A DNA stretch of 64,000 bases from Microbacterium sp. (GTDB lineage Bacteria > Actinomycetota > Actinomycetes > Actinomycetales > Microbacteriaceae), in NCBI RefSeq assembly GCF_017305435.1, contig NZ_JAFKIP010000007.1:1-64000 (forward strand), given 5' to 3'. Shown here piece after piece: positions 2,955 through 48,724 of this stretch. Position numbers and translations under genes: made by a program. Every line of letters starts with the position of its first letter. The stretch's first letter is position 1. The notes under the pieces were generated by a model that did no database searches, was not told the origin of the DNA, and worked only from the letters and a program-made list of their open reading frames with translations.

Positions 2955-4292
2955 TCAGCCTTTCGGCAGGTCCGCGGGCTGGCTCGAGGTGTTCGTGCCG
3001 GAGGTGGGGACGACGGCGGGGACCTCGGCGATGACCTCGACGGACGTGTCGCGCCGTCGCATCATGAGGCCGATGATCGACGGTCCGCCGCGGCGCTTGC
3101 TGATGACGTCCACCGCGACGGCGAGGAGCAGGACGAGGCCCTTCACGATCGAGACCGTGTCGGCGCCGGCGCCGATCAGCTGGAGACCGTTGTTGAGGAA
3201 CGCCATCACGAGGCCGCCGATGATCGACCCGATCACGGTGCCGATACCGCCCGAGACGGCCGCGCCGCCGATGAAGACCGCGGCGATGGCATCCAGCTCC
3301 CAGCCGTTGCCGTCCTGCGGGCCGGACGCCGTCGCCCGCCCGATGTAGATCATTCCGGCGATTGCGGCGAGCACCGACATGTTCATCATGACGAAGAAGT
3401 CGACGCGGCGATCCTTGACGCCGGACAGGCTCGCGGCGAGGCGGTTGCCGCCGACGGCGTAGATGTGGCGGCCGAACACCGTGCTGTTGGTGAGGAAGGA
3501 GTAGATCACGACGAGGACGAGGAGGATGACGCCCGAGATCGGGAAGCTCGTGCCGGGGCGCCCCGTGGCGAACAGCCATGCCGCCCAGAGGATGGCGGCG
3601 CTCAGCAGGACGACCTTGACGACCGAGACCCACACCGGCGCGCGGTCGGCGTCGATCTTGGCCTGCTGACGGCGCAGCCGGACCTCGTTCCAGACGATCC
3701 AGCCCGCACCGATGAGGCCGAGCACCATCGTCAGCACGTTGAAGTCGAAGGGCAGGGGCAGCTCGGGGAGGTAGCCCGACCCGATGAAGCTGTACTCCGG
3801 CGGGACCGGGATCGTCGTCGACTGGCCGATCGCCTGGTTCGCGCCCCGGAAGATGAGCATGCCCGCGAGGGTCACGATGAACGCCGGCACACCGACGTAG
3901 GCGACCCAGAACCCCTGCCAGGCGCCGGCGAGGGCGCCCACGACGAGGCCGATCGCGATCGCGAACGGCCACGGCACGTTCCACTCGCTCATGGACTTCG
4001 CCACGATGATGCCGACGAAGGCCGCGACAGATCCGACGGACAGGTCGATGTGACCCATGATGATCACCATCACCATGCCGATCGCCAGGATCAGGATGTA
4101 CGACTGCTGGCTGACGACGTTGATGAGGTTCTGGGAGGAGAGGGTCTTTCCCCCGGTCATGATCTGGAAGAAGAGGATGATCGCGATGAGCGATCCGAGG
4201 ATGCCGAACTGGCGGCCGGTCGAGCCGGATCCGAACATCTTGCGCAGGTCGGAGAACCCGCCCTGTCGGTCCTTCGCTGTCGTGTCGGTCAT
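2955..4292 (-). CDS. gguB: Sugar ABC transporter permease
   Basis: A 445-residue integral membrane protein of the ribose/xylose-type permease family (GguB, also called MmsB or XylH), forming the membrane channel of the sugar importer. Many hydrophobic helices are visible, with the family segments [14 protein letters not shown] (residues about 83-96) and [13 protein letters not shown] in the C-terminal half. The ATG start overlaps the gguA stop by 4 bp (ATGA), so the two are translationally coupled. The cytoplasmic C-terminal tail after about residue 405 is low-complexity and Ser/Thr-rich. Confidence 0.92.
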
Positions 4293-5836
4293 GCTCTCGC
4301 CTTCGGTCGGGAGGAGGTCATGCTGCGCATGAGGTTTTCAGGAGTGGCTTCGGATGCCGGGATGTCGTCGGTGATCTGACCTTCGAAGACGGTGTAGATG
4401 CGGTCGGCGATGCCGAGGAGCTCGGGGAGCTCGCTCGAGATGAGGATCACGCCCTTCCCCTGGGACGCCAGCTGCTGGATGATCGTGTAGATCTCGTACT
4501 TGGCGCCGACGTCGATGCCGCGCGTCGGCTCGTCGAGGATCAGCAGGTCGGGATCGGTGAACATCCATTTCGCGAGGACGACCTTCTGCTGGTTGCCGCC
4601 GGAGAGCTTCGAGACGCCGACGTCCACCGACGGCGTCTTGATGCGCAGTCGCTTGCGGTAGTCCTCGGCGATGTCGTTCTCCGCGTAGGGGTCGACGACG
4701 CCGCGACGGGAGATCTTCGAGAGCTTCGCGGCGACGATCGAGCGCTTGATCGTGTCGAGGAGGTTGAGGCCGAGCACCTTGCGGTCTTCGCTGACGTACG
4801 CGAGACCGTGCGCGATCGCGGCCTGGACGTCCTTCAGGACGATCTCCTGGCCGTCCTTGACGATCGTGCCCCCCAGGTACTTGCCGTAGGACCGACCGAA
4901 GATGCTCATCGCGAGCTCGGTGCGCCCGGCCCCCATGAGACCGGCGAGCCCCACGATCTCGCCGCGGCGGACGAACAGGTTCGAGCCTTTCGCCACGAGG
5001 CGCTCGGCGATCTGGGGATGCTGGACGGTCCAGTCGCGCACCTCGAAGAACACCTCCCCGATGTGCGGGGTGCGGTCGGGGAACCGGCTCTCCAGAGATC
5101 GGCCGACCATCCCGCGGATGATGCGGTCCTCGTCGACGCCGCCGCCGCGCAGATCGAGCGTCTCGATGGTGCGGCCGTCTCGGATGATCGTGATCTCGTC
5201 GGCGATCTGCTCGATCTCGTTGAGCTTGTGGCTGATGATGATCGACGTGATCCCCTTGCCCTTGAGGGAGAGGATCAGATCCAGCAGGTGCTGCGAGTCG
5301 TCCTCGTTGAGCGCCGCGGTCGGCTCGTCGAGGATCAGGAGCTTGACGTCCTTCGCGATCGCCTTCGCGATCTCCACGAGCTGCTGCTTGCCGACGCCGA
5401 GGTGCTTGATCTGGGTGTCCGGATCTTCGCGGAGTCCGACGCGGGCGAGCAGGTCGACCGCGCGCAGACGCGCCTCGGACCAGTCGATGACGCCGCCGCG
5501 GGCGATCTCGTTGCCGAGGAAGAGGTTCTCGGTGATGGAGAGCTCCGGGATCAGGGCGAGCTCCTGATGGATGATCGCGATACCGGCCTGCTCGGAGGCG
5601 CGGATGTCGCGGAAGGCCACGAGGTCACCGCGGAACCAGATCTCGCCGGTGTAGGTGCCGTGCGGGTACACGCCGGAGAGAACCTTCATGAGCGTGGACT
5701 TCCCCGCGCCGTTCTCCCCGCAGATCGCGTGGATCTCCCCCGCGCCGACCGTGATCGACACATCGCTCAGCGCCTTGACGCCGGGGAACTCCTTCGTGAT
5801 GGAGCGCATCTCCAGGATCGGGACCGCGTCCGCCAT
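4289..5836 (-). CDS. gguA: Sugar ABC transporter ATP-binding protein (dual ABC)
   Basis: A 515-residue ATPase with two fused ABC domains that powers the GguB/ChvE importer. The first domain has Walker [10 protein letters not shown] (residues about 40-48) and Walker [12 protein letters not shown]; the second has a degenerate Walker A (GLMGAGRTE, as is usual in the family), signature LSGGNQQKV and Walker [13 protein letters not shown]. The start is ATG at 5836, with GAGGAGG 8 nt upstream. It is the first gene of the operon, downstream of a strong promoter with a LacI-type operator (5898-5952). It is also known as mmsA. Confidence 0.94.
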
Positions 5837-5897
5837 GGGCTCGACCTCCTCGTCGTCCGTTATGCCCGAAGCATGATTGCGGCGGTTCTCCGCCGTC

Positions 5898-5952
5898 GAT
5901 GTGACCGTTCACATCGCTTGAACATCGTGCACCCTCCGCCGCCTCGTGTCAA
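5898..5952 (-). promoter_or_regulatory. gguA promoter with LacI-family operator
   Basis: On the minus strand, -35 TTGACA (5952-5947) and -10 CACGAT (5929-5924) are 17 bp apart, placing the start point near 5917. Immediately downstream, 5898-5915 holds GATGTGACCGTTCACATC, a near-perfect 18-bp palindrome (16/18) with the CG centre typical of LacI-family operators. A near-identical site precedes the adjacent lacI-type gene. Binding at the transcription start would block the sugar operon until the inducer is present. Confidence 0.75.
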
Positions 5953-5979
5953 TTACGCGCGGGGCCCGTTATCGAAGCG

Positions 5980-7053
5980 TCATCTTCGACGCGTCGCGGC
6001 GGGCGCCGTGGAGCCCCGCACGACGAGTTCGGGCGTGAGATCGACGATCCCTTCGCCCGCTCCTCCGGCGCCGCCCGCGGCATCCGTCGCCGCCGCGCTC
6101 GCGGGGCCGGCAGGCCCGATCGCGCGCAGCAGCGCACGGACAGCGCGCTCGCCCAGACCCGCGAAATGCTGGTGGACGGTCGTGAGCGGCGGGGCGGCAT
6201 GGCGCGCCAGCGGGATGTCGTCGAAGCCGACGACGCTCATCTGATGCGGCAGGTCCACCCCGACGTCGCGGAAGCCGTGCAGGAGCCCGAACGCCATCGC
6301 GTCATTCCCCGCGAAGACGGCGGTGAAGTCGAGCCGGCGGGAGAGCTCCACGGCAGCCCGGTAGCCGAAGTCGGCTGTCCAGTCGCCGAGGATCGGCGGG
6401 CGGGTCGGCAGATCGGCGTCGGAGAGGGCATGGAGGTAGCCGCGCATCCGGCTCTCGGCCTCGATCCAGTCCTGCGGGCCCGCGACGTGGAGGATCTCGA
6501 CATGGCCGAGCCCGATGAGATGCTCGGTCGCCAGGCGCGCCCCGCGCACCTGATCCTCCGCGATCTCCGCGACGCCGCGCTCGGCCGTGTGCAGACCCAG
6601 ATACGGGACATCGACGTCGAGCTCGGCGAGGACGTCGAAAACGCGCACCTGCGGGGCGTGCACGATGATGCCCTCGACCGACTGGCGACGCAGGTGCTCC
6701 ACGGCCGCGCGGATCGTCTCGGGGCGCGTGTCGGCGAGGTAGGCGGAGTTGACCCAGTAGCCGTGCGCCCGCGCCGCATCCTCGACGGCGGCGACGCTGG
6801 AGGTCGGGCCGTACTCGCCGCGCGACCCGAGAATCAGCCCCAGCGTGCGCGAGCGGCTGGTCACGAGGGCGCGGGCGGCCTGGTTGGGCCGGTAGCGCAG
6901 CTCGGTCATCGCGTCGAGCACGCGCTGCTTCGTCTCGGGGCGGATCGAGGGATGGCCGTTGAGGACGCGCGAGACGGTTTGATACGACACGTCGGCAGCG
7001 CGCGCGACATCGCGGATACTCGCCGTGCGGGTGCGCTCCTCGCCTGCGGTCAC
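5980..7053 (-). CDS. LacI-family transcriptional regulator of the sugar operon
   Basis: A 357-residue repressor. The N-terminal helix-turn-helix (IRDVARAADVSYQTVSRVLN) is followed by the hinge RPNQAARALVT and a periplasmic-binding-protein-like sensor domain ending with VVGFDDIPLARHAAPPLTTV. I place the start at the GTG at 7053, preceded by GGCGAGG, rather than the in-frame GTG at 7098. The upstream frame would run through an operator palindrome (7069-7086) and past the predicted transcription start. It lies directly upstream of gguA, so it is the likely local repressor and probably controls itself. The sugar effector is unknown. Confidence 0.88.
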   Translation of the reverse strand: MTAGEERTRTASIRDVARAADVSYQTVSRVLNGHPSIRPETKQRVLDAMTELRYRPNQAARALVTSRSRTLGLILGSRGEYGPTSSVAAVEDAARAHGYWVNSAYLADTRPETIRAAVEHLRRQSVEGIIVHAPQVRVFDVLAELDVDVPYLGLHTAERGVAEIAEDQVRGARLATEHLIGLGHVEILHVAGPQDWIEAESRMRGYLHALSDADLPTRPPILGDWTADFGYRAAVELSRRLDFTAVFAGNDAMAFGLLHGFRDVGVDLPHQMSVVGFDDIPLARHAAPPLTTVHQHFAGLGERAVRALLRAIGPAGPASAAATDAAGGAGGAGEGIVDLTPELVVRGSTAPAATRRR

Positions 7054-36285: not shown

Positions 36286-36942
36286 TCATGCCGTCCGCGG
36301 CAGCGCGGAGATCCAGTTGCCGAGCAGGCGGATGCCGGCGGCGCCGCTCTTCTCGGGGTGGAACTGCGTCGCGCTCAACGGACCGTTCTCGATCGCCGCG
36401 AGGAACGGCTGCCCGTAGTCGCACCACGTCGTCACCGGCGCACGGAAGGGCCGCATCGGCTCGAGGGTCCAGTGCTGCGCTCCGTACGAGTGGACGAAGT
36501 AGAACCGCTCGTCCTCGATGCCGTCGAACAGGACCGAGCCTTCACCGGCACGGAGGGTGTTCCAGCCCATGTGCGGCAGGACGGGCGCGTCGAGTTCGGT
36601 CACCGTGCCGGGCCACTCGCCGAGGCCGTCCGTCTCGATCCCGCGCTCGACGCCGTGCTCGAAGAGGACCTGCATGCCGACGCAGATCCCGAGGACGGGG
36701 CGCCCGCCGGACAGGCGCCGCTCGATGAGCTCATCCCCGCGGATGCCGCGGAGCGCGCTCATCACGGCGTCGAACGCCCCGACGCCGGGAACCACGAGGC
36801 CGTCCGCCTCGGCGACGAGTCCGCGATCCGCCGTCAAGCGGGCGTCCGCGCCCGCAGCGACCAGGGCCTTGACGGCGGAGTGGACGTTTCCCGAACCGTA
36901 GTCGAGGACGGCGACGATCGGGCGGGAAGCGGCATCCGTCAC
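36286..36942 (-). CDS. hisH: Imidazole glycerol phosphate synthase, glutaminase subunit
   Basis: A 218-residue class I glutamine amidotransferase that feeds ammonia to HisF. The nucleophile motif [11 protein letters not shown] has its Cys in place, and the His-Glu pair is in [18 protein letters not shown] is the usual N-terminal block. GTG at 36942 overlaps the hisB stop by 4 bp. hisF is not in this window. A short GCCCGC-A-GCGGGC hairpin occurs in the 94-bp gap before priA. Confidence 0.95.
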
Positions 36943-37565
36943 AGGGCGCCCTTCGTGCTCGGGATGCCGTCGACGAGCGGGTCGAGCGCTTTGGCCTGCC
37001 GGAACGCACGCGCGAACGCCTTGTACTCCGCCTCGGCGATGTGGTGCGGGTCGCGCCCGCCGAGGACGGTGACGTGGACCGTCAGGCCTCCGTTGAAGGC
37101 GATCGCCTCGAACGTGTGCCGCACGAGTGACCCCGTGAAGTGACCGCCGATGAGATGGTGCTCGTAGCCCGCGGGCTCCCCCGTGTGCACGAGGTACGGG
37201 CGCCCGCTGATGTCGACGACGGCCTGCGCGAGCGCCTCGTCGAGCGGGACGAGAGCGTCGCCGTAGCGGGAGATCCCCGCCTTGTCGCCGAGAGCCTGAC
37301 GGATCGCCTGACCGAGGACGATCGCGACGTCCTCGACGGTGTGGTGGGCATCGATGTGCGTATCGCCGGAGGCGCGGACGGTCAGGTCGGTGAGCGAGTG
37401 CTTCGCGAAGGCCGTCAGAAGGTGATCGAAGAACGGCACCGTCGTGTCGATGTGGCTCGTGCCCGTACCGTCCAGATCGAGGTCGAGCTCGACCGTGGAT
37501 TCGCTCGTCACCCGACGGAGGGATGCCGTGCGATCAGAGGCGGACGGAAGGGACGCGGATGCCAT
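36939..37565 (-). CDS. hisB: Imidazoleglycerol-phosphate dehydratase
   Basis: A 208-residue monofunctional IGPD that dehydrates imidazole glycerol phosphate with two Mn ions. The metal-binding blocks [28 protein letters not shown] and [13 protein letters not shown] are intact; there is no phosphatase domain. ATG 37565 follows a TAGACT by 7 nt, suggesting an internal promoter in addition to read-through from hisC 26 bp upstream. Confidence 0.97.
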
Positions 37566-37591
37566 GCTGCCGAGTCTAGCGACGCACGCGC

Positions 37592-38710
37592 TCAGTCCCG
37601 ATCGGACGAGACCTCACCCGCGTGCGCTCCGCCGTCGCCGAGCGACGCGAGCGCGTCGAGGAAGGCGGTGGACTCCTCTTCCGTGCCCGCGGTCACGCGC
37701 AGGCTGCGGGGCAGCCCCACGTCGCGGACGAGCACTCCCTGGTCGTAGAGCCCCTGCCACGTGGCGGCGGGATCGTCGACGCCGGCGAAGAGCACGAAGT
37801 TGGTCCAGCTCTGGAACGGCTCGTAACCCAGCGCATCGAGGGTCGCGGAGATCCGGTCCCGCTGCGCGACGATGTCATCGACCATCGCGAGCATGGCGGG
37901 GGCGTGACGGAGCGCGGCGATCGCCGCCGCCTGCGTGAGCGCGCTCAGGTGATACGGCAGCCGGACGAGGCGCAGAGCGTCGATGAGCGCCGGATCGGCC
38001 GCGAGATAGCCCACGCGGGCGCCGGCGAAGGCGAAGGCCTTGCTCATGGTGCGCGAGACGACGAGCCGCTCGCGACCCGGCAGCAGCGTCAGCGCGGAGC
38101 GGACATCACGCGGCGCGAACTCCTGATACGCCTCGTCGACGATCACGATGCCGTCGGTCGCGTCGTAGACGGCCTCGATCACATCGAGTCCGAGCGGCGT
38201 GCCGGTGGGGTTGTTGGGAGAGCACAGGAAGGTGACGTCGGGGCTCGCCTCTTCGATCTGCGCGGCGGCGTCGTCCGCGGCGATCGTGTAGTCGACGCCG
38301 CGCGTGCCGGCGACGTAGGACGCTCCCGTGGCGCGGGTGAGAAGGGGGTACATCGAGTAGGTGGGGCCGAAGCCGAACGCCGTGCGCCCGGGGCCGCCAA
38401 ACGCTTGGAGAAGGTGCTGCAGGACCTCGTTCGACCCGTTCGCCGCCCAGATCTGCTCGGGGAGCAGACCGTGTCCGAGGTATTCGGCGAAGCCCTCGCG
38501 CAGCGCCGTGAACTCGCGATCCGGGTAGCGGTTGACGTCGCGCAACGCGTGCGCGAGTGAATCGAGGATGTCGTCCGCGACCTCCTCCGGCACCGGGTGA
38601 GTGTTCTCGTTGACGTTGAGGGCGACCGGCAGCGGCGCCTGCGGCGCCCCGTATGGGGTCAGTCCACGCAGATCGGGCCGGAGGGGAAGGTCATCGAGAC
38701 GCGCGCTCAC
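37592..38710 (-). CDS. hisC: Histidinol-phosphate aminotransferase
   Basis: A 372-residue PLP aminotransferase (class I/II). [10 protein letters not shown] near the N-terminus, the phosphate site NGSNEVLQ, the [10 protein letters not shown] block, the cofactor Asp in [12 protein letters not shown] and the Schiff-base Lys in [17 protein letters not shown] are all visible. GTG 38710 has TACGAT 6 nt upstream (leaderless type). It lies 27 bp after the LysM gene on the same strand. Confidence 0.96.
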
Positions 38711-38737
38711 AGCACCATCGTAAAGCGCGACCGGTCC

Positions 38738-39103
38738 TCAGTGCTCCGCGCGGACGGGGAGCGAGATCGTCTGACCGACCACGAGCGCGCCTGACGGAAG
38801 CGCGTTCAGCCGAACGATCTCGTCGACGACGTCTCGCGGGTCGGATGCCGGGTCCGCGGCTTCGGCGATCGACCACAGGGTGTCGCCGGGCATGACCGTC
38901 ACCTGCTCGAACGAGTCTGCCGGGGCGCCTCCGTCGCTCGAGGCGAGCGCCCCGCCGCCGGAGACGATCGCGAAGGCGAGAGCGAGGACCGCGGGAAGTG
39001 CGGCGATCGCGGCGAGCACGCGACGCCCGCGCACGGTCAACCGTAGCCGCGTCGCGGGGACGCGCGGAACGAACGTGGCGGTGGTGAGGTCGATCGTGGT
39101 CAT
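38738..39103 (-). CDS. LysM-domain membrane protein next to lexA (SOS division-inhibitor type)
   Basis: A 121-residue protein with an N-terminal cytoplasmic segment, one membrane helix (residues about 30-50: [20 protein letters not shown]) and an extracytoplasmic LysM domain ([18 protein letters not shown] to [10 protein letters not shown]) that binds peptidoglycan. Its position divergent from lexA matches YneA/DivS and Mycobacterium ChiZ (Rv2719c), small SOS-induced cell-division regulators. ATG 39103 has AGGAGAAGACA upstream. A promoter with a LexA-like site lies at 39179-39210. The role as an SOS division inhibitor is inferred from context. Confidence 0.82.
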
Positions 39104-39178
39104 TGTCTTCTCCTCGACGGAAGTCGTGATCTTCGCATCCGACTCTCGGCCGGGAGAGCCGGATACGAAGTTCTCTTC

Positions 39179-39210
39179 CGAACCTATCTTCGATATAGTA
39201 CGGGTGTCAA
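39179..39210. promoter_or_regulatory. Divergent lexA/LysM promoters with LexA-box-like site
   Basis: CGAACCTATCTTCG (39179-39192) matches the Gram-positive SOS box CGAAC-N4-GTTCG at 9 of 10 fixed positions. On the minus strand it covers the -10 TAGGTT (39186-39181) that pairs with TTGACA (39210-39205) over 18 bp, the LysM promoter. On the plus strand it lies just before TATAGT (39194-39199), a good -10 for lexA. One site can therefore control both genes. Confidence 0.65.
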
Positions 39211-39312
39211 GATCGCATCGGATCGGAAGCGGATCGAACGCGACACGCGTGAGCCTGTCGGTCGGGGCGTCCGGGACCGGATACGGTTTCGACGAGGACA
39301 CCCCATCACCGA

Positions 39313-39354
39313 CCTCCGACATTCGAAGACGAGCCTCCGGCATTCGAAGACGAG
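39313..39354 (+). repeat. Tandem 21-bp repeat in the lexA leader
   Basis: CCTCCGACATTCGAAGACGAG-type units occur twice in direct succession (39313-39333 and 39334-39354), differing at one base. Each unit contains the palindrome TTCGAA. They lie 30-70 bp upstream of the lexA start within its predicted 5' UTR. Confidence 0.8.
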
Positions 39355-39383
39355 AGCGCGCGGTGCGATCGAAGGAGAGCGAC

Positions 39384-40046
39384 ATGGAACGGCCGCAGAC
39401 TCGGCGACGCAAGAGCCTGAGCGACAAGCAGCTCGCGATCCTGGAGGTCATCCAGCGCTCGATCGCGCGGCACGGCTATCCGCCGAGCATGCGCGAGATC
39501 GGCGACGCCGTGGGGCTCAAGTCGCTCTCGAGCGTCACCCACCAGCTCAACCAGTTGGAGCTGAGCGGGTACCTGCGCCGCGACGCGGGCAAGACGCGCG
39601 CCATGGAGGTCCTCATCGACCTGCCCGGATCGTCCGCCGAGAACCCCGCTGACGAAGCGCCCGCCGTGGGCGACGCCGCGCTCGTCCCGCTCGTCGGCCG
39701 GATCGCAGCCGGTGTTCCTATCACGGCGGACCAGCAGGTCGAGGAGATCTTCCCGCTCCCCCGCCAGCTCGTCGGCAAGGGCGAGCTGTTCATGCTGAAG
39801 GTGAGTGGCGAGTCGATGATCGACGCCGCGATCTGCGACGGCGACTGGGTCGTCGTCCGTTCCCAGCCGAGCGCGAACAATGGGGACATCGTCGCGGCCA
39901 TGCTCGACGGCGAAGCGACGGTGAAGACGTTCCGCCAACGCGACGGCCACACGTGGCTCCTGCCGCGCAACACGGCGTTCGAACCCATTCTCGGCGACGA
40001 CGCCACGGTGCTCGGGAAGGTCGTCGCGGTCCTGCGCGCAGTCTGA
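39384..40046 (+). CDS. lexA: LexA repressor
   Basis: A 220-residue SOS repressor. The winged-helix N-terminal domain ([29 protein letters not shown]) binds DNA; the C-terminal domain carries the Ala-Gly cleavage site in RIAAGVP, the nucleophile Ser in [12 protein letters not shown] and the Lys in EATVKTF. RecA, encoded 14 kb away, triggers its self-cleavage. ATG 39384 is preceded by GGAGAG. The open frame continues upstream, but the extension is not LexA-like. Confidence 0.97.
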
Positions 40047-40073
40047 GCCGTCCACGCCGGCGACGCGGTGCGT

Positions 40074-40100
40074 CTCCCCGGCCGAGTTTTCGGCGGGGAG
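40074..40100 (+). terminator. lexA terminator hairpin
   Basis: CTCCCC (40074-40079) pairs with GGGGAG (40095-40100), and inside them GCCGA pairs with TCGGC around a short T-containing loop, followed by ATCGTCTCTT. It lies 27 bp after the lexA stop and 26 bp before the next gene. Confidence 0.65.
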
Positions 40101-40126
40101 ATCGTCTCTTCCGCCACAATGGCGCC

Positions 40127-41476
40127 ATGACGAACGGCGCCACGACGCAGGACGAGGATCTTCCCGCGCGCATCTCGGCCCTCGAGGCGGAGAACGCCCG
40201 GCTCCGCGAGGCGGTCGCGCCCGTGCACGGCCGAGGCGCGGGGCGATGGCGGGCGTGGCTCTCGGCGCTCTGCATCGTCGTGGCATCCGTCCTCGTTCCG
40301 GTGTCGGTCGTCACGGCGTGGGGCCGGGCACAGCTCGTCGATGAGGATGCCTTCGTCGCGACGCTCGCACCCCTCGCCGCGGACCCGGCGGTCCAGTCGA
40401 TGATCATCGACGAGACGATGGATGCCATCACGGCACAGGTCGACTTCACCGCGATCACCTCGAGCGCCATCGACGGCATCGCGGATCTCGGCCTTCCGCC
40501 GGCGGCCGTGTCAGCGCTGACGCTGCTCAAACAGCCCGCGGCGGACGGCCTCGAGAGCCTGGTCGAACGCGCCGTCACGCGGGTCGTCACCTCGGACGCC
40601 TTCGCCGAGGTCTGGGCGACGACGACACGCGCCGGCCATCGGGCGTTCACGACCGCGGCGACCTCCGACGGGGGCGGTCTCGTCGTCCGGACCGACGACG
40701 GCGTCGGCGTCCAGCTGGGCGCGATCGTCGAACGCGTGACGCAGACCCTGACGGCGCAGGGCGTCGGCATCGCCGGCCTCATTCCGCGCGTGGATCGGGT
40801 CGTGATCCTCGGTTCCGGGGAGAGTCTCGCGCAGGTTCGGACGGGCTACGCCGTCGCCGCGGGGGTCGGCTACTGGGCGCCCGTTCTGACGCTAGGGCTT
40901 CTCGTGGGCGGGATCCTCATCGCGCGCCGTCGGCAGACGGCCCTCCTGGGAGCAGGGCTCGGGCTCCTCATCGGGGGCGGCGTCCTCGCGATCGTCATCT
41001 CGATCGGTTCCGCCCTGATGGCGGCCGTCGGCGCCCAGACCGGACTCGAGCCGGCGGCGCTCGCCGCGATCTACGCACAGGTGTCTGATGGGATGGCGCG
41101 GACGTCGGTGGTCCTTGCCCTGATCGGCGCCGCCGTCGCCGCCGTCGCGTGGGTGCACGGGCGGTCACGTCCGGCGGTCGCCCTCCGCAGCACGTTCGGC
41201 TCGATCAATCGCAGTCTGCGCCGCGCGCGCACCGCACGCGGCCTCGAGACGGGCGCGGTCGGCCGGTGGCTCTATGCGCAGCGCGTGCTGGTGCGCGCCC
41301 TGATCGTCGCGCTCGCCGTCGCCGGCCTGCTCGTCTTGCGTCCGCTGACGGTGAGTGCCGTCATCCTCGTCGGAGTTCTCGCGCTGTTCGCCTGGTGGAT
41401 CGCAGAGCTCCTGCAGGCGCGTCCCGACGAGGCGATCACCGCCACGGAGGAGAGTGCCGCGCCGGTCTCGCTCTGA
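40127..41476 (+). CDS. Membrane protein of unknown function with N-terminal coiled coil
   Basis: A 449-residue protein. Residues 10-35 form a short cytoplasmic coiled coil (ARISALEAENARLREAV), then one helix (about 42-64), an extracytoplasmic segment of about 180 residues (VDEDAFVATLAPLAADPAVQ...), and four to five helices between residues 245 and 435. The layout resembles other actinobacterial integral membrane proteins with this AFVATLAPLA-type loop, with no known activity. ATG 40127 follows CACAAT by 6 nt (leaderless type). It converges with a flavin reductase gene. Confidence 0.75.
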   Translation: MTNGATTQDEDLPARISALEAENARLREAVAPVHGRGAGRWRAWLSALCIVVASVLVPVSVVTAWGRAQLVDEDAFVATLAPLAADPAVQSMIIDETMDAITAQVDFTAITSSAIDGIADLGLPPAAVSALTLLKQPAADGLESLVERAVTRVVTSDAFAEVWATTTRAGHRAFTTAATSDGGGLVVRTDDGVGVQLGAIVERVTQTLTAQGVGIAGLIPRVDRVVILGSGESLAQVRTGYAVAAGVGYWAPVLTLGLLVGGILIARRRQTALLGAGLGLLIGGGVLAIVISIGSALMAAVGAQTGLEPAALAAIYAQVSDGMARTSVVLALIGAAVAAVAWVHGRSRPAVALRSTFGSINRSLRRARTARGLETGAVGRWLYAQRVLVRALIVALAVAGLLVLRPLTVSAVILVGVLALFAWWIAELLQARPDEAITATEESAAPVSL

Positions 41477-41493
41477 GCTCTCAGGCCTGGTTC

Positions 41494-42069
41494 TCAGGCG
41501 TCGATGCGGGACCGGTCGCTGAGCCGGTGCCACGTGCGGTTGTGGTACACGAGGGCATCGCCCGCGTCACCCGCCCCGAGCTCACGCCCGAATCCGCTCT
41601 CGAGCGCGTGCGCGGCGATGACGGTGGAGGTCCCGGCATCCATGCGATCGATGACGGCGCAGCGCACCCAGGCGCGCACACCGTCGTACACGGGCTCCCC
41701 CGTCGCGAGCCGCGACCAGCCCTGCTCCTGCGCGAAGCGGTCGACCCCGCGCGCCGCGCCGAGCTTCGCGACCTCGATGTCGTTCGCATCCAGCAGATGG
41801 ACGACCACGGTCTCGGCGCGCGCGAGGACATCGGAGGACGACGACAGCGTCGAGATCGAGAAGATGAGCAGCGGCGGCTCCGCACTCACGGACACGACCG
41901 ACGTCGCCGTCAGCGCGACAGGCCCGTCGCCGGCGTCGGCGGTGATGACGGCGACACCACCCGGATGCCCGCGGAAGAGCGCCTTGAACTCGTCTGCGGA
42001 CAGCGAAGACGCGAACCCGTGCCGGGCTTCGGCCTCGACGCCCGACGGGGCACCGGAGGGCGCGGTCAC
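41494..42069 (-). CDS. Flavin reductase-like FMN-binding protein
   Basis: A 191-residue protein of the flavin reductase-like domain family (two-component monooxygenase reductases). The core FRGHPGGVAVITADAG, ALTATSVVSVSAEPPLLIFSIS and NDIEVAKLGAARGVDRF is the typical split-barrel flavin site. GTG 42069 overlaps the mesD stop by 4 bp. Its fixed place behind mesX-mesD suggests it supplies reduced flavin to that oxygen-dependent system; this is inference. Its own donor (NADH or NADPH) is not readable. Confidence 0.85.
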   Translation of the reverse strand: MTAPSGAPSGVEAEARHGFASSLSADEFKALFRGHPGGVAVITADAGDGPVALTATSVVSVSAEPPLLIFSISTLSSSSDVLARAETVVVHLLDANDIEVAKLGAARGVDRFAQEQGWSRLATGEPVYDGVRAWVRCAVIDRMDAGTSTVIAAHALESGFGRELGAGDAGDALVYHNRTWHRLSDRSRIDA

Positions 42070-43124
42070 GGCCGCACTCCGGTGGCCTCCGTGAGCTCGC
42101 CCCGGACGAGGGCGGCGCCCGCGCTCAGCGCGGTGAGCTTTCGGAGCGCGACGTCCCGAGGGAAGGGCGCCATGCCGCAGTTCGTGCTCGGGATGAGCTT
42201 GTCGGCATCGACGAACGCGAGCGCGCGGCGCAGCGTATCGGCCACCTCCTCCGGTGTCTCGACCGTCTCGTCCGCCACATCGATCGCGCCGAGCATGACC
42301 TTCTTGCCGCGGACGAGCTCGATGAGCTCCATCGGCACGTGCGAGTGCTGACACTCCAGGGAGATGATGTCGATGCTCGACTCCTGCAGAAGGGGGAAGG
42401 ACTCCTCGTACTGCCGCCACTGCGACCCGAGACCGGCCTTCCAGTCCGTGTTGGCCTTGATCCCGTATCCGTAGCAGATGTGCACGGCGGTCTCGGCGCG
42501 CAGGCCTTCCGTCGCTCTCTCGAGCGTCGCCACGCCCCACTCCTTCACCTCGTCGAAGAAGACGTTGAACGACGGTTCGTCGAACTGGATGATGTCGACG
42601 CCGGCGGCCTCGAGGGCGCGCGCCTCCTCGTTGAGGATCGTCGCGAACTCCCACGCCAGCTTCTCGCGGCTCTTGTAGTGCGCGTCGTAGAGAGTGTCCA
42701 CCATCGTCATCGGCCCGGGGAGGGCCCATTTGATCGGCCGATCGGTGGTCTCGCGCAGGAAGCGTGCGTCGTCGACGAACACGGGACGCTCGCGACGCAC
42801 CTCGCCGACGACGGTCGGAACGCTCGCGTCGTAGCGATCGCGGATGCGCACGGTCTCGCGTTTCTCGAAATCCACTCCGCTGAGATGCTCGATGAACGTC
42901 GTGACGAAGTGCTGTCGAGTCTGCTCACCGTCGCTGAGGATGTCGATCCCACGCCGGGTCTGCTCCTGCACGGCGATGCGCAGCGCGTCCTGCTTGCCTT
43001 CGATCAGGGCGTCGCCCTCGAGCGTCCATGGCGACCAGAGCACTTCGGGCTGTGCGAGCCACGAAGGTTTGGGCAGACTCCCGACGATCGTCGTGGGCAG
43101 CAGCGCGGGGGCGGGGACGGTCAT
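42066..43124 (-). CDS. mesD: Core methionine synthase MesD (MetE C-terminal domain only)
   Basis: A 352-residue protein matching only the catalytic half of cobalamin-independent methionine synthase, so it lacks the N-terminal folate-binding domain of MetE (about 750 residues). The zinc ligands are conserved: His215 and Cys217 (HICYG), Glu257 (SLECQ) and Cys316 (STNCG). TTIVGSLPKP is the usual N-terminal block. It is encoded between DUF1852 (MesX) and a flavin reductase, overlapping both by 4 bp. MesD enzymes make methionine from homocysteine without methylfolate or B12 but need MesX and oxygen; the methyl donor is unknown. Confidence 0.88.
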   Translation of the reverse strand: MTVPAPALLPTTIVGSLPKPSWLAQPEVLWSPWTLEGDALIEGKQDALRIAVQEQTRRGIDILSDGEQTRQHFVTTFIEHLSGVDFEKRETVRIRDRYDASVPTVVGEVRRERPVFVDDARFLRETTDRPIKWALPGPMTMVDTLYDAHYKSREKLAWEFATILNEEARALEAAGVDIIQFDEPSFNVFFDEVKEWGVATLERATEGLRAETAVHICYGYGIKANTDWKAGLGSQWRQYEESFPLLQESSIDIISLECQHSHVPMELIELVRGKKVMLGAIDVADETVETPEEVADTLRRALAFVDADKLIPSTNCGMAPFPRDVALRKLTALSAGAALVRGELTEATGVRP

Positions 43125-44149
43125 GCGACGGCCACCGCCGTCTGCGCGGCCACCGTCACCTGAGCGGCCCAGCGCTCGAGCACCTCGCGGTGCGGCTCGA
43201 TGAAATGCTCCTGCGCGAACCGGCCCTGGGTGAGGGCGAGTCGGTTGCGCTCGTCGCGGTCGTAGTCGATCTGCGTGCGGGAGAAGTCCTGCGCGCCCAG
43301 GCTCGGCCGGTAGACGGCGGGTGCGGCGGAGTTCGCGTTGTAGATCTCGGGGCGGTAGATCTTCTGGAAGGTCTCCATCGCGCTGATCGTCCCGATCAGC
43401 TGCAGGTCGGAGTAGTCCGCGAGCAGGTCGCCGCGGAAGTAGAAGGCGAGCGGGGCGACGCTGCCGCGCGGCATGAAGTACCGCACCTGCAGGCCCATCT
43501 TCGCGAAGTACTCGTCGGTGAGGGAGTACTCGTCCTGCCGATACTCGACACCCAGGACCGGATGGTGAGTGGTCGTGCGGTGGTAGGTCTTGCTGGTGGA
43601 GACGCTGATGCAGATCACCGGGGTCTGCGGGAACCGCTCGCGATACGCGTCGGACTCGAGGAACTGCTGGAACAGCTTGCCGTGGAGCACCCCGAAACCC
43701 TCCGGCAGCACGGGTGCACCCGTGCGCCCGTCGTTCGCCGCCGGCAGAAGCACGCTGAAATCGAAGTCGCGGACGTACGAGGAGAAGTTGTTGCCCACGA
43801 TGCCGTGCGTCCGCGTGCCGGTGCGGGTGTCGACGATCTGGATGTCGAGGACTTCGAGGAGCGGAAACTGCTGGTCGGCATCCGCGCCCTGCCCACCCTG
43901 TGCGGTGAACTGCAGGTCGACCGAGACGATGTCGAGTTCGACGGTGTAGCGGTCACCCGTGGGGTTGTCCGCATCGGCGAGGTCGTTGAAGCGGTTGTCG
44001 ATCATGGTCAGCGCACCACGCAGGTTCTGTCGGCGATGCTCGCCGCGCGCGAGGTTCGCGAAGTTCGTCGTGATCCGGGAGCTCTCCGACGGGGCGTAGT
44101 CCTCGTCGAACCGGGTCGTCCTGATGCTGAACGCGAATTCCTCCGCCAT
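43121..44149 (-). CDS. mesX: DUF1852 protein MesX, partner of MesD
   Basis: A 342-residue protein of DUF1852, opening with FAFSIRTTRFDEDYAPSESS and containing TNFANLARGEHRRQNL. It is the first gene of the methionine synthase operon, ending in an ATGA overlap with mesD. In other aerobic bacteria this family is required for MesD activity together with oxygen; its reaction is unknown, but an oxygenase-like step releasing a methyl group is a reasonable guess. No metal or cofactor motif is obvious. The divergent LysR gene probably controls it. Confidence 0.87.
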   Translation of the reverse strand: MAEEFAFSIRTTRFDEDYAPSESSRITTNFANLARGEHRRQNLRGALTMIDNRFNDLADADNPTGDRYTVELDIVSVDLQFTAQGGQGADADQQFPLLEVLDIQIVDTRTGTRTHGIVGNNFSSYVRDFDFSVLLPAANDGRTGAPVLPEGFGVLHGKLFQQFLESDAYRERFPQTPVICISVSTSKTYHRTTTHHPVLGVEYRQDEYSLTDEYFAKMGLQVRYFMPRGSVAPLAFYFRGDLLADYSDLQLIGTISAMETFQKIYRPEIYNANSAAPAVYRPSLGAQDFSRTQIDYDRDERNRLALTQGRFAQEHFIEPHREVLERWAAQVTVAAQTAVAVA

Positions 44150-44222
44150 GAGTGGCCAATCCTGTGGGTCTGCGGCCGACTCGGCCGTACGTGAAAGGAG
44201 TCAGATCCATCGTGCAGCGAAT

Positions 44223-44243
44223 CCGAGATATCGAGTAACTCGG
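44223..44243. promoter_or_regulatory. Candidate LysR-type operator
   Basis: CCGAG (44223-44227) and CTCGG (44239-44243) form an inverted repeat separated by 11 nt, the T-N11-A-like geometry used by LysR regulators. It lies in the 124-bp gap between the divergent mesX and lysR genes, upstream of the lysR -10-like TATAGC (44260-44265). Confidence 0.5.
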
Positions 44244-44273
44244 TGGAACTATGGATAGATATAGCCTTGCACT

Positions 44274-45215
44274 ATGGCTCAGGGAACGAGCGGTCTGACG
44301 CTCCAGCAGCTCCGCTACTTCATCGAGGTCGCCGCCGAGGGATCGATCTCAGCGGCTGCCGACGTGCTGTACGTCGCGCAGCCCACGATGTCGGCGGCGA
44401 TGAAGGACCTCGAGTCGCGGGTCGGCCGCGCGCTCCTGACCCGCTCGGCGCGCGGCGTCAGCCTCACCGATGACGGTGCGGAGTTCCTCGGGTACGCCCG
44501 CCAAGTCGTCGAACAGGTGGCGCTCCTCGAGCAGCGGTACCTCGGGCGCCCGCCCTCCCGGCGCCTGCTGGGCGTCTCTGCCCAGCACTACTCGTTCGCT
44601 GTCGACGCCTTCGTCCGGATGGTCAAGGCGAGCGGTGCCGAGGAGTACGAGTTCTCGCTGCGCGAGACGCGCACGTGGGACATCATCGAGGACGTCCGGA
44701 CGCTCCGCAGCGAGCTCGGCATCCTCTACCGCAATGACTTCAACCGCGCCGTCCTGGAGCGACTGCTGCGCGATTCCGGCCTCGCGTTCCATCCCCTGTT
44801 CGTCGCCGAGCCGCACATCTTCGTCTCCCGCCGCAATCCCCTCGCGGCGAAGGAGCGGGCGACGCTCGCCGATCTCGCGGGCCTCCCGCGACTCACGTTC
44901 GATCAGGGAGCGAACAACTCCTTCTACTTCGCGGAGGAGATCCTCTCCACCCTGTCGAGCGCTCAGGAGATCCGCGTGTCCGACCGCGCGACGATCTTCA
45001 ACCTCATGATCGGACTCGACGGGTACACGATCTCGACGGGCATCATCAGCGATCAGCTCGACCCCGAGATCGTCGCCGTGCCGCTCGACGTCGACGAACG
45101 CATCGAGATCGGGTGGATCGGGCATGCCGCGATCCCGCTCACCGAGCAGGCGCAGCGCTACCTCACCGAGGTGCGGGCCGTCGTGGCAGGCTTCGGCGTC
45201 ACCCTGCTGGAGTGA
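44274..45215 (+). CDS. LysR-family regulator of the mes operon
   Basis: A 313-residue regulator with the LysR N-terminal winged helix (LTLQQLRYFIEVAAEGSIS, AQPTMSAAMKDLESRVGRAL) and an effector domain (residues about 90-300) that ends DERIEIGWIGHA. It is divergent from mesX-mesD and shares a 124-bp control region, so it is the likely local regulator. The effector is unknown; homocysteine, methionine or a methyl donor would fit. ATG 44274 has a TATAGC 8 nt upstream. Confidence 0.85.
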   Translation: MAQGTSGLTLQQLRYFIEVAAEGSISAAADVLYVAQPTMSAAMKDLESRVGRALLTRSARGVSLTDDGAEFLGYARQVVEQVALLEQRYLGRPPSRRLLGVSAQHYSFAVDAFVRMVKASGAEEYEFSLRETRTWDIIEDVRTLRSELGILYRNDFNRAVLERLLRDSGLAFHPLFVAEPHIFVSRRNPLAAKERATLADLAGLPRLTFDQGANNSFYFAEEILSTLSSAQEIRVSDRATIFNLMIGLDGYTISTGIISDQLDPEIVAVPLDVDERIEIGWIGHAAIPLTEQAQRYLTEVRAVVAGFGVTLLE

Positions 45216-45235
45216 GCGCGCGTACCGTAAAGGTC

Positions 45236-47161
45236 ATGGTCGACACGCTGCCCTACGGATCCTGGCCTTCCCCACTGACGGCGCAGTGGGCGTCCGTCTC
45301 CTCACCGCGCGTCGACGGGGCGGCGTTCGTCGGCGACGAGATCTGGTGGGGCCAGTCCGTTCCCGAGGAGGGCGGCCGCACGACGGTACGGCGGCGGATG
45401 GATGCCGGGGTCGTCGACATCCTGGAAGCACCCTGGAACGTGCGTTCGCGCGTACACGAGTACGGCGGCGGGGCGTGGGCGGCGACGGACGACGGACGAC
45501 TCGTGTTCGTCGAGAAGACCGATCAGCGCGTCTGGATCGTCGATCCGGGCGGCGACCCCCGTGCGCTCACCGCGGTGGACGAGTCGGCGTGCTACGGCGG
45601 GCTGCGGTTCTCGCACGGCCGGCTGCTCGCCGTGCGGGAGTGGCAGGGCGAAGGCGTCGTGCGGCGGGGCATCGTGGAGATCGCGCTCGAGGGCGCGGCA
45701 TCCGTCCGTCAGCTCGTCGGGGACAGCGACTTCGTCGCCCAGCCCGACCTCTCCCCCGACGGCACGCACCTCGCGTGGGTCGCCTGGAACCACCCGCACA
45801 TGCCGTGGGACCGCACCGAGGTGCGTGTCGGCCGCATCGACGACGGCCGCGTGCGGTCGTGGTCCGCCGTGACGGCGGGCGACACGGCGGCGCTCCAGCC
45901 CACGTGGCGCAGCGACGCGGAGCTCGTCTACCTCGACGAGCCGACGGGCCGCTGGAACCTCTGGAGCCGGGGGCACGACGCGCGCACGGACGGCACGCGC
46001 ACGCAGGGCTTCGGCGCTGCCGTGCCGCTCGCGCCGTTCGACGCCGACACGGGCGGCGCGCTCTGGTCCCTCGGGATGCGGTGGTACGGCGTGCTGAGCG
46101 GCGGCCGCATCGTCGCCGTCCGCACGAACGGTTCCGACGAACTCGTCCTCATCGGCGCGGACGGCGGGGTCGCGCCGCTCCCCATCCCCCCGACGGCCGA
46201 ACTGAACGTCGAGGCCGTCTCCGGTGGGCGCGCGCTCGTCTCCGGCAAGGCCGCCGGAACGGGCGGCCTGTGGCTCGTGGACGTCGACACCGGCACGGCG
46301 CGGCAGGTCGTCGGCACCCCCGGCGAGATCGACGGTCGATGGATGCCGCGGACCCGCGCGATCACGGTGGACGGACCGCACGGTCCCGTCCACGCGTTCG
46401 TGTACCCGCCGACCCACCCGGACGTCACGGGTTCCCCCGGCGAACTGCCCCCGTACGTCGTCCTGGTGCACGGCGGACCGACCGGTCACGAGGGCGGGGT
46501 GACGGATGCCAAGACGGTGTACTTCACGAGTCGCGGCATCGGCGTGGTTCAGGTGAACTACGGCGGATCGACCGGCTACGGACGCGACTACCGCGAACGT
46601 CTGTGCGGCCAGTGGGGCGTCGTCGATGTCGATGACGTCGTGGCCGTCGCGGCAGGACTCGTCGTCGCCGGCGACGCCGACCCGGCGCGGATCGCGATCA
46701 AGGGCGGCTCCGCCGGCGGCTGGACGGTGCTCGCGGCGCTGGCGCGCACCGACGCGTTCGCCGCGGGCATCAGCCGGTACGGCGTCGCCGACGCCCGCGC
46801 GCTCGCGGAGGACACGCACGACTTCGAGTCACGCTATCTCGACGGCATGATCGGCCCGCTCCCCGAGGCGGACGAGGTGTACCGGGAACGCTCGCCCCTG
46901 ACGCACGTCGACGGCTTCACCGCACCCGTGCTGCTCCTGCAGGGAAGCGACGACCGGGTCGTGCCGCCGTCGCAGTCCGAGGCGATCCGCGATGCTCTCG
47001 CCGACCGCGGCATCCCGCACGCCTACCGCCTCTACGAGGGCGAGGGCCACGGGTTCCGCCGCGCCGAGACCATCATCGACGCGGCGGAGGCCGAGCTCGC
47101 GTTCCTCGGCGCCGTCTTCGGGTTCACGCCGCCGGGCATCCCGCCGATCGCGCTCGACTGA
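45236..47161 (+). CDS. S9-family prolyl oligopeptidase
   Basis: A 641-residue serine peptidase: a beta-propeller-type N-terminal domain (residues about 20-380) and an alpha/beta-hydrolase domain. The catalytic Ser is in IKGGSAGGW, Asp in LQGSDDRVVP and His in YEGEGHGF; HGGPTGHEGG is the oxyanion region. No signal peptide, so it is cytoplasmic and probably trims small peptides. ATG 45236 follows TACCGT by 7 nt and also AAAGG. It lies 20 bp after the LysR gene and converges with hflX. Confidence 0.9.
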   Translation: MVDTLPYGSWPSPLTAQWASVSSPRVDGAAFVGDEIWWGQSVPEEGGRTTVRRRMDAGVVDILEAPWNVRSRVHEYGGGAWAATDDGRLVFVEKTDQRVWIVDPGGDPRALTAVDESACYGGLRFSHGRLLAVREWQGEGVVRRGIVEIALEGAASVRQLVGDSDFVAQPDLSPDGTHLAWVAWNHPHMPWDRTEVRVGRIDDGRVRSWSAVTAGDTAALQPTWRSDAELVYLDEPTGRWNLWSRGHDARTDGTRTQGFGAAVPLAPFDADTGGALWSLGMRWYGVLSGGRIVAVRTNGSDELVLIGADGGVAPLPIPPTAELNVEAVSGGRALVSGKAAGTGGLWLVDVDTGTARQVVGTPGEIDGRWMPRTRAITVDGPHGPVHAFVYPPTHPDVTGSPGELPPYVVLVHGGPTGHEGGVTDAKTVYFTSRGIGVVQVNYGGSTGYGRDYRERLCGQWGVVDVDDVVAVAAGLVVAGDADPARIAIKGGSAGGWTVLAALARTDAFAAGISRYGVADARALAEDTHDFESRYLDGMIGPLPEADEVYRERSPLTHVDGFTAPVLLLQGSDDRVVPPSQSEAIRDALADRGIPHAYRLYEGEGHGFRRAETIIDAAEAELAFLGAVFGFTPPGIPPIALD

Positions 47162-47176
47162 CCGGCCGGCGGACGA

Positions 47177-48724
47177 TCAGATCGCGAAGGCCGCGAGTCG
47201 CCCGCCCAGGATCGCCGGCACGTGCGCGTGCAGGATCGTGCCGTCGGGACCATGGTCCTCGCTCAGGATGATGCCGTGCTCATGCACGGCCGAGACGAGG
47301 TCGCCCCGGTCGTACGGCACGACCGCACGCACCTCGACGGCGGGAAGCGGGAGGGTCTCCTCGACGCGTGCGCGCAGCTCGTCGACGCCCTCCCCCGTCC
47401 GCGACGACACGAACAGGGCCTGCGGCACGAGCCCGCGCAGCACGAGGCGCGTGTCGTCGTCCAGCAGGTCGGCCTTGTTGAAGACGACGATCTCGGGGAT
47501 GTCGCGCGCGCCGACGTCGCCGATCACGTCGCGGACGGTCTGCAGCTGGGCGGCCGGGTCGGGGTGCGAGCCGTCGACGACGTGGACGATGACATCGGCA
47601 TCCCCCACCTCTTCGAGGGTCGAGCGGAACGCCTCGACAAGCTGATGGGGCAGATTCCGCACGAAGCCGACGGTGTCCGTGAGCGTGTACACGCGACCGT
47701 CGACGGTCTCACTCCGCCGCACCGAGGTGTCGAGTGTCGCGAACAGCGCGTTCTCGACGAGCACGCCGGCGCGGGTCAGCCGGTTGAGCAGGCTCGACTT
47801 GCCGGCGTTCGTGTAGCCGGCGATCGCGACGGCGGGGATCGTGTGACGCTTGCGCTCGGCGCGCTTCGCCTCGCGCGCCGGAGCGAAGTCGCGCAGCTGC
47901 CTGCGCAGTTGGGCCATCTTGGTGCGGATGCGGCGGCGATCGAGCTCGATCTTCGTCTCACCCGGACCGCGGGAGCCCATGCCCGCGCCTCCCGCGCCGA
48001 CCTGACCACCCGCCTGCCGGCTCATCGACTCGCCCCAGCCGCGCAGCCGCGGCAGAAGGTACTCGAGCTGGGCGAGCTCGACCTGGGCCTTGCCTTCGCG
48101 ACTCTTGGCGTGCTGGCTGAAGATGTCGAGGATGACGGTCGTGCGGTCGATGACCTTGACCTTCACGACGTCCTCGAGCGCACGTCGCTGGCTGGCCGCC
48201 AGCTCGGTGTCGGCGATGACGGTGTCCGCGCCGACTGCGGCGACGAGATCCCGGAGCTCGGCCGCCTTGCCGCGACCGATGTACGTCGCCGGGTCGGGGT
48301 GCGGGCGCCGCTGCAGCACGCCGTCGAGGACGACGGCTCCCGCGGTCTCGGCGAGCGCCGCGAGTTCGCGCAGCGAGTTCTCCGCATCGTCGTGCGAGCC
48401 CTGCGGGTAGACGCCGACGAGGACGACGTTCTCGAGGCGCAGCTGGCGGTACTCGACCTCGGTGACGTCCTCGAGCTCCGTCGACAGGCCCGGCACGCGG
48501 CGCAGTGCGGCGCGCTCCTCACGGTCCCACTGGTCGCCGTCGGTGTCGCCGTACGCGACGGTCGCCTCGTCCTGCAGCGCCTGGGCGGCGCCGAACACGT
48601 GCACGCCGGCGCGCGATTCCGCGCGCGCGAGCACCCGATCGACGGGGTCGATCGGGTCTACGCCGACCGTGACGGCCTCGTCAGCGGTGTCGGCGGCGTC
48701 CGTGAAGCCGGTGTCCTGAGTCAT
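47177..48724 (-). CDS. hflX: GTPase HflX
   Basis: A 515-residue ribosome-associated GTPase. The N-terminal HflX domain (YIGRGKAAELRDLV; ERAALRRVPGL) and the glycine-rich linker (GAGGAGMGSRGPGE) precede the G domain: G1 GYTNAGKSS, G3 DTVGF, G4 NKADLL. HflX splits stalled ribosomes after heat stress. The N-terminal 40 acidic residues are an extension. ATG 48724 has AGAAGGAACGA upstream. Confidence 0.95.
   Translation of the reverse strand: MTQDTGFTDAADTADEAVTVGVDPIDPVDRVLARAESRAGVHVFGAAQALQDEATVAYGDTDGDQWDREERAALRRVPGLSTELEDVTEVEYRQLRLENVVLVGVYPQGSHDDAENSLRELAALAETAGAVVLDGVLQRRPHPDPATYIGRGKAAELRDLVAAVGADTVIADTELAASQRRALEDVVKVKVIDRTTVILDIFSQHAKSREGKAQVELAQLEYLLPRLRGWGESMSRQAGGQVGAGGAGMGSRGPGETKIELDRRRIRTKMAQLRRQLRDFAPAREAKRAERKRHTIPAVAIAGYTNAGKSSLLNRLTRAGVLVENALFATLDTSVRRSETVDGRVYTLTDTVGFVRNLPHQLVEAFRSTLEEVGDADVIVHVVDGSHPDPAAQLQTVRDVIGDVGARDIPEIVVFNKADLLDDDTRLVLRGLVPQALFVSSRTGEGVDELRARVEETLPLPAVEVRAVVPYDRGDLVSAVHEHGIILSEDHGPDGTILHAHVPAILGGRLAAFAI

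Follow-up and report, generated by a model that had tools for sequence, protein, structure and literature searches.

Core methionine synthases of the MesD type have been described in Acinetobacter baylyi and Sphingomonas koreensis, and the passages of Price et al. 2021 (PMC7857596) considered here state that MesD requires its partner MesX and oxygen but not MetF, and that mesD and mesX alone rescue E. coli. The same passages note a flavin reductase near mesXD, predict that MesX uses flavin, and leave open the source of the methyl group in MesD-made methionine. Excerpts of other papers report that an Acinetobacter baylyi mutant without ACIAD3523 cannot make methionine without B12 (PMC2606687) and that MesD is insensitive to N2O (PMC13059711); PMC12366255 makes no mention of MesD in the passages considered. 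No later biochemistry on MesX was found in the open-licence PubMed Central literature. MesX and MesD, their oxygen need, the nearby flavin reductase and the flavin prediction for MesX are therefore published knowledge.

Here we compare with these systems a mesXD locus from a Microbacterium sp. contig (NZ_JAFKIP010000007.1), of which a stretch of 64,000 nucleotides was analyzed (the window). The sequence-only reading of this locus correctly recognized a system that was already described, and what is new is not the window itself but comparative evidence that homologous and non-homologous flavin reductases have been recruited repeatedly to mesXD. This pattern was not met in the main-text passages of the open-licence publications examined. 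We consider it moderately probable that the window encodes a MesX/MesD synthase like those in Price et al. 2021, accompanied by a dedicated reductase, which would give reduced flavin for the reaction of MesX with O2, the resulting methyl unit passing to MesD and into methionine.

Organization of the mesX-mesD-flavin reductase operon

The three genes lie on the minus strand in the order mesX, mesD, flavin reductase (Table 1), joined by two 4-bp overlaps exactly where the sequence-only reading had placed them, with the GTG at 42069 as the reductase start giving 4-bp overlaps on either side. Its assignment of the first gene to DUF1852/MesX and of the third to a flavin reductase-like protein also stood: the PF08908 profile (“Putative oxygenase MesX”, cut-off 25) is matched over positions 1-323 of 323, and the reductase is well above the PF01613 cut-off of 27. 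The 4-bp overlap of mesX and mesD recurs in 40 of 81 aligned rows, window included. Overlap of mesD with the reductase occurs in only 3 of 29 rows, again including the window, so such tight coupling is not general. Near the operon, at 36939-40046, are hisB-like and aminotransferase (hisC-like) genes along with LysM-like and LexA-like frames recognized by eye, which are ordinary chromosomal surroundings.

Table 1. Coordinates of the operon, its divergent regulator and the candidate operator in the window.
Feature	Position	Strand	Details
mesX (DUF1852, PF08908)	43121..44149	-	342 aa; 550.6 bits to PF08908
mesD, core methionine synthase, MetE catalytic domain only	42066..43124	-	352 aa; PF01717 only; NF006589 650 bits; 3RPD 593.6 bits
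Flavin reductase (PF01613)	41494..42069	-	191 aa; PF01613 94.9 bits; GTG start overlaps mesD stop by 4 bp
LysR-type regulator, divergent	44274..45215	+	313 aa; PF00126 + PF03466
Inverted repeat CTAT-N8-ATAG, probable LysR operator	44249..44264		in 59/60 LysR-mesX intergenic regions, window included

MesD as a core methionine synthase

The second gene had been read as a short MetE-like protein with four zinc ligands and no folate domain, and both the domain scan, which finds PF01717 but no N-terminal folate domain, and the alignment bear this out. MesD and E. coli MetE share the catalytic domain: the zinc ligands H215, C217, E257, and C316 align with H641, C643, E665, and C726 of MetE, and S16, E67, and D182 align with the homocysteine-binding S433, E484, and D599. 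These residues are kept in all 81 MesD rows apart from a single gap at C316 (the L045 locus is cut by a contig end inside mesD). The two proteins differ in the N-terminal folate domain, which MesD lacks, and are 28% identical over 322 aligned residues. The MesD score to NCBIfam model NF006589 (“methionine synthase”) is above the cut-off of 392. By phmmer with the A. baylyi DSM 14961 MesD (L062) as query, the window protein scores 607.4 bits, which passes the 560-bit threshold that Price et al. 2021 applied with A. baylyi MesD, and it is adjacent to DUF1852. The closest solved relative is 3RPD, treated as a MesD structure in the same passages of PMC7857596. By analogy with its published relatives, the window MesD would be expected to make methionine without methylfolate or B12, given MesX and O2.

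Methionine synthesis elsewhere in the host genome

The host genome (3.5 Mb; tool-reported completeness 100 and contamination 0.6) yielded no match to the MetE folate domain, the MetH activation domain, or the homocysteine S-methyltransferase domain, searches that in control runs gave matches in 10, 7, and 9 of 14 known genomes, respectively. MesD/MesX is the sole recognizable methionine synthase in this genome, and its chemistry may therefore be essential in the host. A further protein on contig C3 has a weak MetE-catalytic match (35 bits; 46 bits for a 399-aa stretch) below every methionine-synthase cut-off, and because the H-x-C, E, and C motifs are readable in it by eye, it may be a second methionine synthase. 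Two adjacent MTHFR-like proteins score above the PF02219 cut-off and far below those of the MetF models.

Two side observations concern MetE-like frames. A second MetE-catalytic-domain protein of the host genome (L118:1444-2640) lies beside what looks by eye like an aldehyde-dehydrogenase frame. In Alcaligenes (L074:3468-5759, similar in L080), a 763-aa frame, by eye a full-length MetE, is directly upstream of mesX-mesD, its C-terminal part matching MesD at 23%.

A divergent LysR regulator and its candidate operator

A tblastn match to the LysR protein above 250 bits, divergent from mesX, is present in 59 of 80 relatives. The CTAT-N8-ATAG repeat, whose rate in shuffled sequence is 0.00075, keeps the same spacing to the LysR start across the 12 rows inspected; its near-universal presence in the intergenic regions (Table 1) overstates independence, because the rows are related. 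The divergently encoded LysR protein is the probable regulator of the operon, and the repeat is its probable operator. In 18 proteobacterial loci the box was looked for in the 300 bp before mesX and not found; 5 of these loci have a MetR-like TGAA-N5-TTCA core in that interval, and excerpts of PMC4239095 place PF08908-metE2 in the MetR regulons of Proteobacteria. Standard MetR control was rejected for the window, since the LysR protein shares just 29% identity with E. coli MetR across 200 residues, as was riboswitch control, with no Rfam match above cut-off in 38000-48000. A second short motif, GATTGG, occurs in 42 of 60 LysR-mesX regions (Actinobacteria); in the rows inspected it precedes mesX by about 9-12 bases.

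MesX and a possible metal oxygenase reading

MesX is conserved in sequence and has no convincing match among solved structures. An alignment of 91 rows, window included, has 72 invariant columns, among them H156, H196, E99, E202, E268, D107, D128, D130, and D297. Modelling of MesX, which the sequence-only reading had proposed as a way of finding a flavin or metal pocket, gave two models (window protein without its first methionine, 341 residues, 28 sequences: pLDDT 84.6, pTM 0.87; A. baylyi protein, 56 sequences, the good one: pLDDT 91.5, pTM 0.90), but Foldseek found no match to either in the PDB at E<=0.001, and so no solved flavoenzyme. Against PDB sequences the window MesX has no match at E<=1, and the sole match of the MesX profile (E 0.05) is unrelated. 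The window MesX and MesD sequences used in the PDB sequence searches also began after the initial methionine, with no visible effect. On these models, MesX may have a new fold.

Because H156, H196, and E202 are among the invariant residues, a metal site in MesX is conceivable, and these residues frame an alternative that we judge unlikely, in which MesX is a metal (e.g., iron) oxygenase and not a flavin enzyme, the reductase keeping the metal reduced as a general electron source. The two histidines together with the invariant acids would suffice for a two-His-one-carboxylate site, and the failure of MesX to match a solved flavoenzyme fits as well. This alternative does not readily account for the recurrent partners, whose families carry the names of reductases of flavin-using monooxygenases, nor was an iron-sulfur partner found among eight downstream neighbours scanned, a small sample.

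Distribution of flavin reductases at mesXD loci

How often a flavin reductase adjoins mesXD was asked of a comparison set of 80 mesXD loci kept from 561 relatives, using one PF01613 profile built from linked reductases and one tblastn query for MsuE over flanks of up to 6 kb; the counts rest on tblastn and profile matches, and some loci are cut by contig ends. A PF01613 gene is present in 29 of the 80 loci, just downstream of mesD in 28 and beside the LysR gene in one (L012). Three more have an MsuE-type gene upstream of mesX, at about 45 bp (L061), 170 bp (L071), and 540 bp (L057). One of the two kinds is thus present in 32 of 80 loci, both in none (an absence of overlap that is not significant because MsuE loci are so few), and neither in 48, a count that includes two Glutamicibacter loci (L041, L046) where tblastn found only broken reductase pieces and which are labelled as linked on the MesX tree. 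On that tree the PF01613 label needs 5 changes. Since a reductase adjoins mesXD in only 32 of 80 loci, it is not obligatory, and the proposal of a “three-component system” was too strong, given also that mesD and mesX alone rescue E. coli.

A PF01613 gene adjoins mesD far more often than background density would give. Eight genomes totalling ~39 Mb contain 43 PF01613 matches, or about one gene per 0.9 Mb, from which we roughly estimate that about 1 in 7000 places would have a same-strand PF01613 start in the next 250 bp downstream. Among 399 genomes of Burkholderiales, the order of L061, 12 have mesX, and 8 of these 12 have one kind of reductase: PF01613 beside mesD in 5 and MsuE in 3 (one of them, G745, is the genome of L061), with neither in 4. 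For plasmids, 16 annotated regions out of 209 records with a match were compared; in 3 the gene listed beside mesD is a flavin reductase (in one case of just 92 aa), and in 1 msuE is listed beside mesX, in gene tables that are incomplete, with L166 repeating the record of L072 and a pyridoxamine-phosphate-oxidase-like gene upstream in L165 left uncounted.

PF08908 occurs in 1 of 296 genomes of the phylum and 51 of 299 of the family, and in 2 of 147 genomes of the order of L068, one of them a fragment of only 73 positions. Several records deserve separate mention: the L077 contig titled Bacillus subtilis has a mesX almost identical to that of Pseudochrobactrum (L076) and is probably a mislabelled or contaminated assembly; the MesX annotated in the Acinetobacter phage MD-2021a records H41 and H42 is possibly host DNA and not a phage gene; and pieces of a second, broken mesX (G844 C1:2175963-2176446; L189, L190) occur alongside an intact copy in the same genome.

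The gene downstream of mesD was also scanned in eight loci without a reductase: L024 has an aldo/keto reductase, six have other families, and one (L132, perhaps in the wrong frame) matches none. With 1 redox-type neighbour in 8, the idea that another redox gene takes the place of the reductase was rejected, and no hint of the methyl donor was seen among the neighbouring genes. By clustering, the gene after mesD is of the aldo/keto-reductase type in five loci of Microbacteriaceae (L024, L025, L048, L050, and L051), one of which was scanned.

The 48 loci where neither kind was found, and the variety of genes that take that position in the eight scanned, would suit an explanation in which the reductase is a passenger of a methionine or sulfur regulon with no direct part in MesX chemistry. 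We regard this as improbable because reductases arrived independently four or more times, once at a site between mesX and mesD (see below), and because of the joint response to B12 in A. baumannii. There, according to the excerpts of PMC12892962, B12 lowers the DUF1852 gene (log2 -8.3) together with the flavin reductase ABUW_3196 (log2 -2.5), two locus numbers away, the intervening gene not being named.

Independent recruitment of flavin reductases

The linked PF01613 reductases were sorted into groups A (actinobacterial), B (Moraxellaceae-type), C (Rhizobiaceae/Brucellaceae-type), D (L158), and E (Burkholderiales, HsaB-like), and placed in trees alongside a background of 25 PF01613 proteins drawn from 8 genomes, which are what was left of the 43 matches after 13 without a locus, L144 (missed by the profile), and four self- or duplicate matches. 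Near- or self-copies were dropped (13 rows from the first two trees, 16 from the tree with group E), and the 92-aa L150 reductase is in none. A single clade of all linked reductases was rejected (p-AU 0.001; 2e-42 with more rows), as were the pairs A+B (2e-49), A+C (5e-17), A+E (2e-77), and B+E (5e-7); the trees are quick ones with long branches, so extreme values are to be read simply as rejection. B+C was not rejected in two trees (p-AU 0.81 and 0.41, the better B+C tree having been missed in one search), and these groups may be one recruitment. A grouping of L158 with A was rejected (0.013); groupings with B (0.19), C (0.23), or E (0.13) were not.

The MsuE type belongs to PF03358, a flavodoxin-like FMN reductase family unrelated to PF01613. 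Proteins from six loci, counted as distinct places after merging two pairs and one triple of locus ids for the same place (e.g., L201 = L188), pass TIGR03566 with 232-257 bits against a cut-off of 212.5. The gene is upstream of mesX in L057, L061, L071, L163, and L191. In L201 it stands between mesX and mesD, in the order divergent LysR, mesX (3866-4849), msuE (4836-5471), and mesD (5538-6566), the msuE and mesX frames overlapping by 14 bp. Three PF01613 lineages plus MsuE imply, as far as these trees can tell, at least four independent arrivals of flavin reductases at mesXD.

That reductases of unrelated families were recruited again and again is an argument for the consumption of reduced flavin, probably FMN, in MesX chemistry. 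FMN is favoured because MsuE is a named FMN reductase and passes its cut-off. The choice is nonetheless inferred, as the RutF-like linked reductases (203-216 bits) fall below the RutF cut-off of 254.75 and the window reductase comes nowhere near the cut-off of any NCBIfam equivalog. Searched against PDB sequences, the window reductase matched 18 at E<=1e-5, several of them named reductases of two-component monooxygenases. A second, unlinked reductase of the host genome (G000 C5:193079-193522; L139) falls in or next to the actinobacterial clade linked to mesXD, in a 3.4-kb locus with no mesX or mesD.

Proposed role of reduced flavin

In the mechanism we prefer, the reductase would use NAD(P)H to convert flavin (probably FMN) to its reduced form and deliver it to MesX, which with O2 would oxidize a common metabolite, freeing or carrying a one-carbon (methyl) unit; MesD would then transfer this unit to zinc-bound homocysteine to form methionine. 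We infer the delivery to MesX, the identity of the flavin, the order of steps, and the role of the LysR protein. The linked reductase would be a convenience part, helpful and not essential, as mesD and mesX function in E. coli with no partner gene; if some other cellular flavin reductase can stand in, the linked one can be absent from many loci. The sequence-only reading had likewise proposed that the reductase supplies reduced flavin to MesX. This gains support from the repeated recruitment of unrelated reductases but is not new, since Price et al. 2021 had already predicted that MesX uses flavin. Our explanation is tempered by the 48 of 80 loci and the third of sampled mesX-bearing Burkholderiales genomes where neither kind was found, by the sufficiency of MesD and MesX in E. 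coli, by the MesX models matching no solved flavoenzyme at E<=0.001, and by the flavin binding of MesX being a prediction.

Reduced flavin might also act as more than a reductant. Flavin with an N5-methylene group is known from ThyX and TrmFO. By extension, MesX could make a one-carbon adduct at flavin N5 that MesD uses in place of methylfolate, which would agree with a MesD devoid of any folate domain and with the recurrence at mesXD of suppliers of free reduced flavin. This proposal is purely conjectural and would call for a separate one-carbon source to account for the oxygen requirement, and we think it very improbable.

A broader claim, which we offer tentatively and with more doubt than conviction, is that MesX founds a novel structural class, whose FMNH2- and O2-dependent members make the methyl group of methionine from a common metabolite without folate, B12, or S-adenosylmethionine, the boldest form having reduced flavin carry the one-carbon unit to MesD. 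Returning to the preferred mechanism, repeated recruitment sharpens the reduced-flavin hypothesis and makes it easier to test: if unrelated reductases have repeatedly been drawn to mesXD, reduced flavin, probably as FMN, becomes the cofactor to try in vitro, and loci with MsuE or the several PF01613 types provide ready-made enzyme sets.

Comparison with known systems

Two-component flavin monooxygenases (of the HpaBC, RutAF, HsaAB, and MsuDE type) resemble the window operon in having a small flavin reductase of the same families beside an oxygen-dependent partner. They differ in that partner, as MesX matches no solved protein convincingly by sequence, profile, or Foldseek. The window therefore has the reductase component of such a system but not an oxygenase related to a known monooxygenase, and MesX may work like the oxygenase of a two-component monooxygenase, yet we do not file it as one.

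The closest described systems are MesD/MesX of A. baylyi (ACIAD3523/3524) and Sphingomonas koreensis (Price et al. 2021), which share with the window both proteins, the gene order, and the residues; Acinetobacter also has a PF01613 reductase downstream. The window departs from these systems in its reductase, which shares 4 bp with mesD and comes from a different PF01613 lineage, and in that its mesX is flanked by a LysR gene with its own box.
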